Assembly (NCBI GenBank): GCA_017936005.1
Contig: JAGBGK010000017.1
Coordinates: forward strand, 1-56,015
Direction: 5' to 3'
From: Tidjanibacter sp.
Lineage (GTDB): Bacteria; Bacteroidota; Bacteroidia; Bacteroidales; Rikenellaceae
DNA length: 56,015 bases
The notes beneath the pieces are model-generated. The model did no database searches. It was not told the DNA's origin and saw only the letters and a list, made by a program, of their open reading frames with translations. This document shows positions 2,121 to 48,430 of the stretch, in pieces; position 1 is the stretch's first letter, and every line of letters begins with the position of its first letter. A program made the position numbers and the translations under genes.

Positions 2121-2335
2121 TAGCCCCACAACAAAAAAACGCAAAGTGCGCAGGCGTTGCCTGTTTTGTGTATTTTGGTCGGAGTGCTATCGAGCGATGG
2201 TAGCACCGAAAAAACGCAAAGTGCGAGGTGAATTTTGTGCCAAGCAAGAAGGCGAGTCCGCAGTTTGCTCTCGCAAATGAGGAACTCGCCTATTGAAGTG
2301 CGGTGCAAAATTCACCCGCAATCTGCGTTTTTTCA
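2121..2335. repeat. Long imperfect hairpin element, unit 1 (3' of dapF)
   Basis: The core is a near-perfect palindrome. An outer arm at 2209-2242 (starting GAAAAAACGCAAAGTGCG) pairs with 2302-2334 (ending GCAATCTGCGTTTTTT). Inside, GGCGAGT (2251-2257) pairs with ACTCGCC (2284-2290), and TTTGC (2264-2268) with GCAAA (2273-2277). Between the two inner stems CCGCAG (2258-2263) faces TGAGGA (2278-2283). A less regular module at 2131-2208 precedes it. It fills the convergent gap between the PepSY-like gene and dapF, with its T run 10 to 15 bases from the dapF stop. It could act as a bidirectional terminator or as a structured 3' UTR. Relatives are at 38401-38717, 46834-46967 and 46967-47092. Confidence 0.8.
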
Positions 2336-2342
2336 AGTTTTT

Positions 2343-3134
2343 TTAGTATTCGCCGCAGAAAACCAACCTCGCCGGACCGGTAAGGTAGATGTCGGTGTAG
2401 TGACCACAACCATCGGTGGAGAACTCAACAGACAAATCACCACCTTGTGCCGCAAGGTCAAAGTGGTGCACCGAGGGTTGTAGGGTGTGGCATATAGCAA
2501 TGGCGGTGGCGGTGGCTCCCGTACCACAAGCAAGGGTTTCGTCTTCAATGCCACGCTCATAGGTGCGGAGTGCAAGCCTACCCTCGCCCAGCACCTTAAC
2601 GAAGTTGATGTTGGCACCATTCGTGGGGGCGCACTTGGGCCCATAGCGCAAGCAGGCACCCACGCCAACCACGTCCATATCCAAATCGTCCACTACCCTC
2701 ACAAGGTGTGGCGAGCCGGTATTGAGCAGAACATCGCCATCCGCATCGACCTCAACACTCTCAACATCAATCATCTGCAAGCGCACTTGTGCCGTCGCAC
2801 CATTGCGTGAAAGTATCTCGGCAGTGTGGAGTCCGTCAACAGCCTCAAAGGTTTTCACATCGCCACCGATGCCCAACAGGTCGGCAAACCAAGCGATACA
2901 CCTACCGCCATTGCCACACATTGTAGCCTCTGGGCCATCGGAGTTGTAGTAGTGCATAGCAAAGTCGTAGTTATCCGAGTCGGCAAGCACCATTGCGCCA
3001 TCGGCACCCACGCCCGTACGGCGCGAACAAATGGCACGGATAAACTCCTCGCTAGGCTCAAAATTTGCACCTCTGCCGTCGAGCAACACAAAATCGTTAC
3101 CAGCTCCCTCGTATTTCCAAAACTTCGTTTTCAT
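2343..3134 (-). CDS. dapF: Diaminopimelate epimerase
   Basis: DapF interconverts LL- and meso-diaminopimelate in the cytoplasm, supplying lysine and the peptidoglycan cross-linking residue. The 263-residue protein begins FWKYEGAGNDFVLLDG, the standard N-terminal motif. Both catalytic cysteines are present in conserved boxes: Cys73 in MCGNGGRC and Cys203 in LACGTGATAT. TNGANINFV and TYERGIEDET are also family signatures. Length is close to the usual 270. It diverges from the TamL-type gene at 3216; the 81 bases between them carry overlapping -7-like boxes, TATATTTG on the minus strand at 3163-3156 being the best for this gene. Its 3' end abuts the long hairpin element. Confidence 0.97.
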   Translation of the reverse strand: MKTKFWKYEGAGNDFVLLDGRGANFEPSEEFIRAICSRRTGVGADGAMVLADSDNYDFAMHYYNSDGPEATMCGNGGRCIAWFADLLGIGGDVKTFEAVDGLHTAEILSRNGATAQVRLQMIDVESVEVDADGDVLLNTGSPHLVRVVDDLDMDVVGVGACLRYGPKCAPTNGANINFVKVLGEGRLALRTYERGIEDETLACGTGATATAIAICHTLQPSVHHFDLAAQGGDLSVEFSTDGCGHYTDIYLTGPARLVFCGEY

Positions 3135-38400: not shown

Positions 38401-38717
38401 CCACACAAAAAAGCTGATTATCTCGGAGGAAATTTTGCAAGCACAGCCTGTTTTGTTATTTTGGCTGGAGTGCAGCCAAGCGTTCGATAGCACAAAAAAA
38501 CGCACAGAACGAGATGAATGCAAGGCAGCGTCAGAATGACGCTTCCCCTATTTTGGCCGTGGGGTTTATTAGGCATTGAGTTGCCCCACAAAAAACTGAT
38601 TATCTCGGAGGAAATTTTGTGCCAAAAGAAGGAGCGAGTCCGCAGCCTACTTGGCGTAGGTGAGGAACTCGCTCTCTGAATTTTGGTGCAAAATTTACCC
38701 GAGAGAATCGGTTTTTT
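38401..38717. repeat. Long imperfect hairpin element, unit 2 (3' of the zinc ribbon gene)
   Basis: Relative of the element at 2121-2335. The outer arms are 38590-38623 and 38685-38717, based on CTGATTATCTCGG opposite CCGAGAGAATCGG; this sequence differs from unit 1 yet still pairs. Inner stem GAGCGAGT (38632-38639) pairs with ACTCGCTC (38667-38674), and CCTAC (38646-38650) with GTAGG (38656-38660), replacing TTTGC/GCAAA of the other units. The constant motif CCGCAG (38640-38645) faces TGAGGA (38661-38666). A second module with another CTGATTATCTCGG lies at 38412-38560. The T run of the outer arm merges with the stop codon at 38716-38718. Confidence 0.8.
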
Positions 38718-39477
38718 ACTCTTCGGAATCGTCGTGCACAAGAATACGTCCACAATACTCGCAGATGATAATCCTCTTGCCCTGACGAATCTCGCTCTGA
38801 CGCTGGGGAGGAATACGGTTGAAGCAACCACCACAAGCATCCCTCTTCACGGGAACAACAGCCAAACCATTGCGAACATTCGAACGGATACGGCCATAGG
38901 CGGTGAGCAACCTCTCGTCGATAACCAGACGAGCCTTGTCTGCCTGTGCCTGCAATGCCTCAACATCCTTTGCGGTCTCTGCATCAATACCCTCCAACTC
39001 GGTGCGTTTGTTGTTGAGGTCAATCATACGGTCAGCCTTCACAGCCTCTGCCTCTTCGAGTTTCTGCTTCTTGGCCTTCATTGCCACAGAGTACTCTTTG
39101 AGGTGCTTCTCGCTGAGCTGAACCTCCAACTGCTGATACTCAATCTCTTTGCTGATGGCATCAAACTCGCGATTGTTACGTACATTCTGCTGCTGCTCCT
39201 CATACTTTGCAATCTGCATTTTGCTCTGCTCGATTTCCTCTTTTGCCTGACGGGTGAGAGCCGTAATTTCGTCTATCTCGGACTGGATGTGAGCGATGCG
39301 GGTTTGGAGTCCTGCAACCTCATCTTCAAGGTCAGCTACCTCCATAGGGAGCTCACCCTTAATCTTGTTGATTTCGTCAATCCTCGAATCGATTTTCTGC
39401 AACTCATACAGGGCCTTAATGCGCTCCTGCATAGTGTAATCCACGCCCTCGGTGGCTTTTTTGTTGGTTGTTGCCAT
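38716..39477 (-). CDS. Coiled-coil protein with C-terminal C4 zinc ribbon
   Basis: I start at ATG 39477 (MATTNKKATEGVDYTMQERI, 253 residues); the longer frame to 39534 adds sequence not typical of the family. Residues 20-180 are one long coiled coil rich in Glu, Lys and Gln (LQKIDSRIDEINKIKGELP, KEIEYQQLEVQLSEKHLKEY). The C terminus contains the zinc ribbon CGGCFNRIPPQ...IIICEYCGRIL, with Cys pairs CxxC and CxxC. This is the PF02591 type common in Bacteroidota; the function is not settled, with suggested nucleic-acid or trafficking roles. It is 60 bases after the Nif3-like gene and is followed directly by the long hairpin element. Confidence 0.9.
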   Translation of the reverse strand: MATTNKKATEGVDYTMQERIKALYELQKIDSRIDEINKIKGELPMEVADLEDEVAGLQTRIAHIQSEIDEITALTRQAKEEIEQSKMQIAKYEEQQQNVRNNREFDAISKEIEYQQLEVQLSEKHLKEYSVAMKAKKQKLEEAEAVKADRMIDLNNKRTELEGIDAETAKDVEALQAQADKARLVIDERLLTAYGRIRSNVRNGLAVVPVKRDACGGCFNRIPPQRQSEIRQGKRIIICEYCGRILVHDDSEE

Positions 39478-39537
39478 AGTCTTGTATATTCTGTGTTTCG
39501 TTGTTTTTGGTTGAAATTGCTCACGCCCACCCATCTA

Positions 39538-46742: not shown

Positions 46743-46833
46743 TGATATACGGCTCACAATAAAGCGGGCCCACAGCGGCCACAGGCCCTTTTGTGTAGAT
46801 GGTAGGTTACATTACATCCAAACGTCAGCAAGC

Positions 46834-46967
46834 ACCACAACAAAAAAACGCAAAGTGTGCGGCAAATGCAAGGCACACAAGAAAACCACCTCCGCAGTTT
46901 GCTAACGCAAATGAGGAGGTGGTTTGTCGCAGTATGACGCCGCAGTCGCCTGCAATCTGCGTTTTTG
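46834..46967. repeat. Long imperfect hairpin element, unit 3a
   Basis: First of two adjacent units in the convergent gap before pgi. Inner stem AACCACCT (46884-46891) pairs with AGGTGGTT (46917-46924), a different sequence from the GGCGAGT/ACTCGCC of units 1 and 3b, so pairing is preserved by compensating changes. TTTGC (46898-46902) pairs with GCAAA (46907-46911). The constant motif CCGCAG (46892-46897) faces TGAGGA (46912-46917). The outer arms AAAAAAACGCAAAG and CTGCGTTTTT are at 46842-46857 and 46957-46966. Confidence 0.78.
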
Positions 46968-47092
46968 AAAAATGCAAAGTGCGGAGGGAATTTTGCACCA
47001 AACGAAAAGGCGAGTCCGCAGTTTGCTTGTCGCAAATGAGGAACTCGCCTATTGAAGTGCGGTGTGAAATTCACCCGCAATCTGCATTTTTC
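46967..47092. repeat. Long imperfect hairpin element, unit 3b (3' of pgi)
   Basis: Outer arms 46967-46999 (GAAAAATGCAAAGTGCGGAGG) and 47061-47092 pair with few mismatches. Inner stem GGCGAGT (47009-47015) pairs with ACTCGCC (47043-47049), and TTTGC (47022-47026) with GCAAA (47032-47036). CCGCAG (47016-47021) faces TGAGGA (47037-47042). The arm runs straight into the pgi stop codon at 47093-47095. Confidence 0.8.
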
Positions 47093-48430
47093 TTATAAGC
47101 GTTTTTTGATGGCTGCCGAAGCCTCCTCATACCCAGGTTTGTCGAGGAGTGCAAACATATTTTTCTTGTAGGCCTCCACACCGGGCTGGTTGAATGGGTT
47201 GACACCCAGAATGTAACCGCTGATACCGCAAGCCTTCTCGAAGAAGTACAAAAGGCCACCGATGTAGTACTCGTTGATGGCGGGAATCTCAATGCGGATG
47301 TTGGGTACACCTCCGTCAACGTGGGCCAAAACAACACCCAACTCAGCCATCTTGTTCACATAGTCGAGGCGTTTGCCGGCAAGGAAGTTTAGACCATCGA
47401 GGTTGTCGCTATCGGTCTCGATGGTTACTTTACCATCGGGCTGTGCCACGCTAATAACGGTCTCAAAGAGGGTGCGCTCGCCCTCCTGAATATATTGTCC
47501 CATAGAGTGGAGGTCGGCAGTAAGGGTTACGCTTGCGGGGAAGATACCCTTGTTCTCCTTACCCTCGCTCTCGCCATAGAGCTGTTTCCACCACTCGGCG
47601 ATGTATTGGAGGCGAGGCTCATAGGAAGCCAAAATCTCAATCTTATATCCCTTGTTGTAGAGGGCGTTGCGCGCTGCGGCATACTGTGCAGCAATGTTCT
47701 GCTCGAAGGGCACACCCTCGGCAGTGGCAACCTCCATATCCCTTGCACCACGCACCAACTCGGAAATGTTGATACCTGCGGCAGCGAGGGGCAGAAGACC
47801 CACGGGAGTGAGCACCGAGAAGCGACCACCCACGTTGTCGGGAATAACATAGGTTGCATAACCCTCGGCAGTGGAGAGGGTTTTGAGTGCGCCACGTGCT
47901 GCATCGGTTACAGCTGCAATGCGCTCACGAGCCTCCTCTTTACCATAGCGAGCCTCTATCTCGGCCTTAATCAGGCGGAAAGCCACGGCAGGCTCGGTGG
48001 TGGTACCGCTCTTGCTGATAACGATGGCGGCAATGCTATAATCCTTAACAGCATTGAGGAGTTCGGCAGTGTAGGTTTCCGACAGGTTGTTGCCGGCAAA
48101 AACAATGTAGGGGTTTTTGCGGTTTTTCTCCAAGAAGTGGAACGAGCTGCTCATTGCATCCAAAACAGCCTTTGCACCGAGGTAGGAGCCACCGATACCG
48201 ATGACAATGACAACCTCTGCTTTGGAGGCCAAAGTGCGTGCTGTGATGTTGATTGCCTCAATCTCTTCGGGAGTGATGCTCGAAGGGAGATTAACCCAAC
48301 CGAGGAAATCGTTACCTGCTCCTTCTCCGCTGTGGAGCAACGAGTTAGCCTGTTGTGCTGCACCTGCAAGTGCTGCCACCTCGGAGGCCTCTACGCCACA
48401 CGAGATGTGTTTGGTTTCAAGTTTTATCAT
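47093..48430 (-). CDS. pgi: Glucose-6-phosphate isomerase
   Basis: Pgi interconverts glucose-6-phosphate and fructose-6-phosphate in the cytoplasm. The 445-residue protein is the short bacterial form. [20 protein letters not shown] is the phosphate-binding motif, [16 protein letters not shown] the second signature, [20 protein letters not shown] the Prosite-type region, and [26 protein letters not shown] leads to the C-terminal catalytic part [15 protein letters not shown] -7-like box (TAAATTTG, 48480-48473) lies about 43 bases upstream of the ATG. It diverges from mreB. It links to the NagB product fructose-6-phosphate only through central metabolism. Confidence 0.97.

Follow-up and report, generated by a model that had tools for sequence, protein, structure and literature searches.

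The 56,015-nt stretch of Tidjanibacter sp. DNA analysed here (hereafter the window) raises the question of why long hairpins with changing stems and a constant internal loop should stand directly behind genes of its minus strand. The original prediction described them as a four-member family of covarying hairpins and offered three readings, namely a terminator class, an element for 3′ UTR processing or protein binding, and a mobile hairpin equipped with a terminator of its own. It is the third proposal that is supported, by the dispersal of copies, some of them nearly identical, and the variable occupation of orthologous gene ends described below. We regard it as fairly probable that the units are non-autonomous mobile hairpins of the ERIC type, which have settled behind stop codons and are predicted to serve there as terminators.

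Four long hairpins in the window

The sequences and coordinates first given for the four units proved correct to within one base, and the stems were found as described (Table 1). Outside the CCGCAG/TGAGGA loop the stems read GGCGAGT/ACTCGCC, GAGCGAGT/ACTCGCTC or AACCACCT/AGGTGGTT, and inside it TTTGC/GCAAA or CCTAC/GTAGG. Protein family matches identify the genes that the three loci follow as dapF, a zinc-ribbon gene and pgi, all on the minus strand as had been proposed, and the last pgi codons (AAAAAACGCTTATAA) resemble a unit arm. The segment at 2205-2340 was predicted to fold with -69 kcal/mol, compared with -34.4 kcal/mol (sd 3.8) for shuffled sequences (z -9.2), z being about -9 on either strand. 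A scan of Rfam gave no match to the units over threshold, and at relaxed limits, applied to the pgi pair only, it returned chance-level microRNA models and nothing else.

A shortened or chimeric derivative is also present in the window, where the terminator scan placed a terminator-like stem at 2150-2164; comparable junctions occur at three other loci (L041, L095 and L196). In all of these chimeras a short hairpin of the type GCxGCCxCAGGCxGTTTTGTG replaces the part that follows the arm or TGAGGA. Possibly they are deletion derivatives, or else members of a second repeat family. The contig closes (55543-56015, minus strand) with a 5S rRNA gene and a 23S rRNA gene of which the 3′ part is included.

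Table 1. Hairpin units, the genes whose 3′ ends they adjoin and a derivative in the window, with scores from the covariance models R1 and R2 (see text).
Feature	Positions	Strand	Details	R1 (bits)	R2 (E)
Unit 1, full-length hairpin behind dapF	2209..2334	- (mRNA sense)	core CCGCAG..TGAGGA 2258-2283 on +	78.6 (at 2226-2317)	2.6e-4
Unit 2, behind zinc-ribbon gene	38590..38717	-	core 38640-38666, inner stem CCTAC/GTAGG	80.3	3.4e-5
Unit 3, second in tandem pair behind pgi	46842..46967	-	core 46892-46917, outer stem AACCACCT/AGGTGGTT; CAAGGC..ACGC subtype	66.7	5.8e-8 (top R2 match)
Unit 4, closest to pgi stop codon	46967..47092	-	core 47016-47042	76.4	1.2e-5
dapF, unit 1 at 3′ end	2343..3134	-	PF01678, E 4.6e-36		
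C4-type zinc-ribbon protein gene, unit 2 at 3′ end	38716..39534	-	PF02591, E 4.1e-14		
pgi, units 4 and 3 at 3′ end	47093..48430	-	PF00342, E 3.9e-22		
Shortened/chimeric derivative	2136..2208	unassigned	unit arm AAAAAAACGCAAAGTGCG, then short terminator-like hairpin GCAGGCGTTGCCTGT; no core		

A dispersed repeat with paired changes in its stems

The four members are real, and the family is wider than first described, with kinship to ERIC and carriers in several phyla that had gone unseen. In the host genome (G000, a 1.97-Mb draft of 80 contigs, 88.8% complete), the loose pattern CCGCAGN{4,30}TGAGGA gave 68 matches against one for its reverse, and the strict pattern CCGCAGYYTRCN{2,10}GYARRTGAGGA gave 56 copies (24 + 32) against none. 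Each unit is a single long imperfect hairpin of ~126 bp, and the centre AG-YYTRC-loop-GYARR-TGA is present in the 56 copies. BLAST of unit 1 against the same genome returned 61 matches, at most 98% identical apart from unit 1 itself and some of them partial or on the reverse strand. Many units are close to contig ends, no more than a few hundred bases away (C7, C13, C17, C29, C44, C45, C48, C50, C57, C76 and C77); the assembly thus probably breaks at the units, and the real copy number would be higher. Runs of GACGGTTGACGGTCGACG and GACGTTGGACGTTAGAC, another low-complexity repeat of the lineage, were seen at the left flanks of many of the units.

Compensatory change around the constant loop, as had been predicted, is evident in an alignment of 53 of 55 host copies (A3), from which the chimeras L041:2088 and L064 were excluded. 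Here 86.6% of cells are paired, against 73.3% in shuffled alignments and 36-50% in slid controls, over which the structure used is favoured by its origin as the fold of unit 1. The covariation score is 0.388, compared with 0.170 for shuffled and 0.07-0.13 for slid alignments, and both-sided changes occur in 38 of the 49 pairs. The outer arms (helix 1) are 91.6% paired in A3, and the inner stem is fully paired (100%) in A3 as well as in the alignments A1 and A2 introduced below. About 19 of the 53 copies, mostly of the CAAGGC/AACGC subtype, lack some middle pairs of the unit 1 fold. The invariance of the loop proves nothing by itself, as the search patterns used to pick A1 and A3 leave the loop letters no freedom to vary. 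Selection on RNA structure had been claimed; the paired change on which the claim was built stands, and it is compatible with an RNA hairpin and a DNA hairpin alike.

Placement behind stop codons

Gene direction near the units was assessed from codon-usage gene calls and from an open reading frame (ORF) test that treats both sides symmetrically. By the gene calls, the right-hand gene lies on the minus strand with its 3′ end facing the unit in 51 of 55 host copies; for 47 of them the core is separated from the stop codon by 28-78 nt, most commonly 47-51 nt. The left-hand genes are evenly split (22:22, with 12 uncalled). The ORF test likewise found the gene on the right only, as opposed to the left only, in a ratio of 37:0 in the host genome (n=43) and 19:0 in its relatives (n=23), in line with the one-sided placement at gene 3′ ends originally proposed. 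Ratios of 41:7 (n=69) were obtained in other named Bacteroidota, 4:2 (n=14) in named non-Bacteroidota and 13:4 (n=28) in Halomonas-class genomes, and single genomes gave 7:1, 4:0, 1:1 and 2:2. One-sided placement is therefore very strong in this lineage, and elsewhere weak to absent. Codon-usage calls gave right-hand genes on the minus and plus strands in a ratio of 61:26 for 88 named copies, two of which lie inside a called gene, and 19:9 for 30 Halomonas-class copies. An orientation test based on the longest ORF (35 minus, 20 plus, 1 none) was discarded, as it was misled by long antisense ORFs. The suggestion that the units are non-random in position and strand thus holds clearly in Bacteroidota and weakly in the Halomonas class; the four E. 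coli ERICs compared are mixed in orientation (one as in the units, three the other way).

The fixed side, the distance to the stop codon and the single orientation would equally suit the main rival explanation, in which the units are terminator or processing hairpins of the 3′ UTR that serve the host, bind a host protein through their loop, and spread by recombination or gene conversion rather than by a transposase. Overall we consider this explanation rather unlikely, on evidence taken up below. Units that directly follow stop codons and share one orientation, with variable paired stems and constant boxes, also resemble the attC sites of integron cassettes, which stand behind ORFs and are folded as a single strand for a tyrosine recombinase. 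However, attC core boxes were not noticed in the units, and the genes beside the units in the window belong to the ordinary core set; a recombination site of this kind is improbable.

If the units are instead ERIC-type mobile hairpins settled at gene ends, they would most likely replace the host terminator with a strong hairpin. By sequence and fold the unit is a stable hairpin that ends, read in the direction of the gene, with a T-run, as in an intrinsic terminator, the corresponding A-run of at least five on the left arm being present in 42 of 54 host copies and absent from 12. The terminator scan, whose model permits loops of 3-8 only, missed the long hairpin itself. The outer arms are mostly of the A-run/T-run kind, and transcription could therefore stop from either side. 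Most likely, this lineage tolerates, or uses, an ERIC-type mobile hairpin as a gene terminator. The units stand at the ends of dozens of genes in the lineage and so probably shape its transcript ends.

Structural kinship with ERIC repeats

At the pgi end of another genome of the genus (G006), which has no match to the strict pattern, a variant unit with the loop GGAG/TGA was found. This sister form is present in 43 of 274 Halomonas-class genomes, compared with two that have a control match. A single 2.4-Mb genome of that class (G295) contains 185 copies, of which the ten that were fetched (L367-L376) are nearly uniform, with the ends GTAACT..AGTTAC; this genome is a good place to search for an active mobiliser.

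Two covariance models were built, neither of which includes an ERIC sequence. Model R1 derives from alignment A1 of 81 CCGCAG-type copies, for which 209 copies were reduced by five with fewer than two of four stem pairs and thinned to 87, ten chimeric or doubtful copies were removed by hand, and the four window units were added. Model R2 derives from alignment A2 of 26 of 32 Halomonas-class sister copies and is also free of Bacteroidota sequences. Over the 56 kb of the window R2 ranked the four units first to fourth, with E values of 5.8e-8 to 2.6e-4 and the next match at 0.16. R2 also found all four E. coli ERICs that were fetched (E 2.7e-8 to 1.2e-3; next match 0.68), and R1 found the same four (E 3.7e-4 to 3.5e-3; next match 0.77). 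Three of these ERICs score 17-20 bits with either model, and the fourth 31 bits with R2 and 17 with R1; since palindromes score on both strands, as shown by two window units that reach 17-18 bits with R1 when read in reverse, scores near 20 need a strand control. On the reverse strand neither model gave a match below E 1 that covers an ERIC centre, the match at E 0.68 overlapping an ERIC end by ~18 bases, and plain palindromy is thus not the cause of the scores.

The flanking boxes give a mixed picture. The combination of a left AAGGC with a right AACGC was seen in all four ERICs, in 14 of 30 Halomonas-class copies, in 36 of 111 named copies of the window type and in 11 of 52 host copies, and the host copies of the other subtype pair through the AAGGC/AACGC box region instead. 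Comparison of the four ERICs with the window by blastn gave no similarity at the units, so their placement in an ERIC superfamily follows structure and motif rather than nucleotide identity. The host, a member of the Rikenellaceae, lies outside the Enterobacteriaceae and Vibrionaceae, in which the available part of a review places ERIC (PMC10969869), and in the strict sense, by nucleotide similarity as well as by host, the units are not ERICs. They look like ERIC-type repeats outside enterobacteria, that is, like distant ERIC relatives. With the ERIC/IRU/RU-1 elements of enterobacteria and Vibrio they share a length of ~126-127 bp, one long imperfect hairpin, presence in many copies and intergenic position, as well as the AG-YTTAC..GTAAR-TGA centre and, in part of the copies, the AAGGC left box and the AACGC right box. 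They differ from ERIC in an inner loop of CCGCAG/TGAGGA rather than GAG/TGA, in their arms, in their Bacteroidota host, and in their strong one-sided placement behind stop codons. ERIC repeats have long been in use for strain typing and are not known to have a mobiliser. ERIC-type units in Bacteroidota are not described in the available portions of the literature searched (including PMC10969869, PMC2229807, PMC2267715, PMC10924375 and PMC3733652).

Two RNA families in Rfam resemble the units. The model of sX9 (RF02228) scored 35.6 bits on a related unit (cut-off 44), its match lying antisense to that of R1. Further matches below cut-off were found in three genomes of another family of the phylum, f41 (11, 21 and 31 matches), and in Halomonas (2); in the cases compared they fall on R1 sites and read the other strand, the one that corresponds to gene sense in the window units. 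None of 17 genomes gave an sX9 match over the curated cut-off, the host genome gave no match, and sub-cut-off matches arose in the E. coli control too. V_AS5 (RF02818, Vibrio RNA AS5) matched three of the four E. coli ERICs below its cut-off (E 1.1e-7 to 1.8e-5), the fourth, from an E. coli plasmid, having an overlapping match to CssrA over that family's threshold; no V_AS5 match was found in the window at 46800-47110 at E 1. The sX9 elements of Xanthomonas are annotated as small RNA genes, in contrast to the units, which appear as a repeat, and several sX9 genes are described in the available part of one study as rising under copper (PMC10924375). There are hints that units of this type are often transcribed. 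The sX9 and V_AS5 matches, both sub-cut-off, would also fit a 3′ UTR element that serves the host.

A broader proposal, which we put forward tentatively and would rate at somewhat less than an even chance, is that ERIC is a single branch within a superfamily of mobile hairpins that is defined by structure and extends across bacteria, spanning Bacteroidota, Gamma- and Zetaproteobacteria, Pseudobacteriovorax and Gallionellaceae. The loops would be recognised by one strand-aware enzyme or RNA-protein machine that places copies in sense behind stop codons in some lineages, and some members would have been annotated as small RNAs (sX9, V_AS5). Such kinship would link repeats of several bacterial groups, may help to explain their movement, and may account for sX9 and V_AS5, annotated separately, as belonging to one repeat family.

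Age of the sites and probable mobility of the units

Presence and absence of the units at orthologous gene ends differ between species. In the genus a dapF match was obtained in 19 genomes, and of these only G000 and G019, the latter with different arms, have a CCGCAG-type unit at the dapF end; of the 20 with a pgi match, the close species G000, G010, G013 and G017 have such a unit at the pgi end. The remaining pgi ends carry ordinary hairpins (several, as judged by eye), sister-form units or remnants of them (G006, G008 and G012), or none, and the last pgi codons vary (IKKRL or LKKRM versus IKARLK). Many unit sites are old. By right flank, 28 of 42 loci in G013 match an element locus in G000, and 24 of 55 do so in the reverse direction, both figures being upper bounds because the flanks of tandem copies contain the neighbouring unit. 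Orthologous copies are ~70% alike, compared with ~89% for their flanks. In 22 orthologous pairs of copies from G013 and G000, both-sided base-pair changes kept the pair 129 times and broke it 44 times, and one-sided changes kept it 34 times and broke it 158 times.

The shared sites and the excess of both-sided changes that keep pairing are what a hairpin maintained in the 3′ UTR for the host would be expected to show. That explanation sits less well with the one-sided changes, most of which break pairs, and with copies that are less alike than their own flanks; the patchy occupation of orthologous ends and the range of 5 to 73 copies in the 11 carriers other than the host resemble a spreading repeat. 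It is further opposed by the outer arms, which are common to most copies in three of four other genomes (G295, G080 and most of G104; G177 is mixed), indicating that the whole unit spreads. Insertion of a unit into the loop of a host terminator, whose stem would then form the outer arms, was rejected on the same ground of arms shared by most copies within a genome.

Our preferred reading, an ERIC-type mobile hairpin, would have the units multiply in a Rikenellaceae-like lineage and be retained mainly at places that directly follow a stop codon, and in one orientation. The hairpin has an inner loop, CCGCAG/TGAGGA, that encloses YYTRC/GYARR, and some copies have a second, outer loop, CAAGGC/AACGC; these conserved loops would most likely form the recognition site of a protein that moves or processes the element. 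An empty site with alignable flanks was not found at the dapF, pgi or L409 loci. At L409, a G013 locus, the sister species G017 is also occupied, the two sides lie on different contigs in G016 and G010, and G000 has one side only, leaving no readable junction.

TA, a candidate target-site duplication, stands at both ends in 19 of 42 host copies. Such ends are common among Correia/NEMIS, RUP and other TA-ended MITEs, as covered in the available part of PMC2229807, and like them the units are small, non-autonomous and provided with terminal repeats. They differ from those MITEs in having variable arms around constant internal loops and no partner transposase among Y1_Tnp and DDE_3. The profile of the IS630-type transposase (DDE_3) did not match G000, and across 23 genomes of the genus it gave three matches, all of them below cut-off and in non-carriers. 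Y1_Tnp was matched neither in G000 nor in the 11 other carriers of the genus, its only match in the genus being in a non-carrier (G007). On these profile searches RAYT and IS630 were rejected as mobilisers in G000.

That the units are REP-type elements mobilised by RAYT, a Y1 HUH transposase, is very improbable and largely refuted. They resemble REP/BIME elements in being palindromic, extragenic, hairpin-based and present in many copies, and REP-like palindromes have been reported in Bacteroidetes, according to the available part of PMC3733652. REP elements, however, are shorter, at 20-40 bp against ~126 bp, and are accompanied by the Y1 transposase that all 12 carriers of the genus, the host included, lack by the profile search.

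Distribution among genomes

The strict pattern was present in 12 of 60 genomes, the host's included, all of one genus, and gave no match in the 37 genomes from outside that genus. An origin by chance or by misassembly, to which the fragmented draft with several copies at contig ends might point, is refuted by units in other assemblies and by reversed-pattern controls that were zero in all 60 genomes. Among the matches listed in a wider search, the strict pattern occurs in assemblies of Rikenellaceae, Alistipes, Tidjanibacter, Bacteroidaceae and Flavobacteriia, and more rarely in Halomonas, Alteromonadaceae, Pseudoalteromonas, Marinobacterium, Kangiella, Ghiorsea, Gallionellaceae and Pseudobacteriovorax; this covers at least the taxa named, some of which may be chance matches, those at L111, L128, L131, L140 and L184 appearing weak. 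Viral contigs gave no strict-pattern match, and a phage origin was rejected on that ground.

Model R1 found matches in all 24 genomes preselected for a pattern match (1 to 58 each) and in 27 of 198 genomes sampled across the phylum, the host's included, 25 of the 27 belonging to f41. A family that spans phyla gives comparative power, as genes that track the units across carriers would be candidates for the mobiliser or binding protein. The units in f41, which belongs to another class of the phylum, have the inner stem TGTAC/GTACA (L378-L381). In a Chryseobacterium metagenome-assembled genome (locus L116, 5900-7293), two near-identical units stand 667 bp apart within a larger, apparently non-coding repeat.
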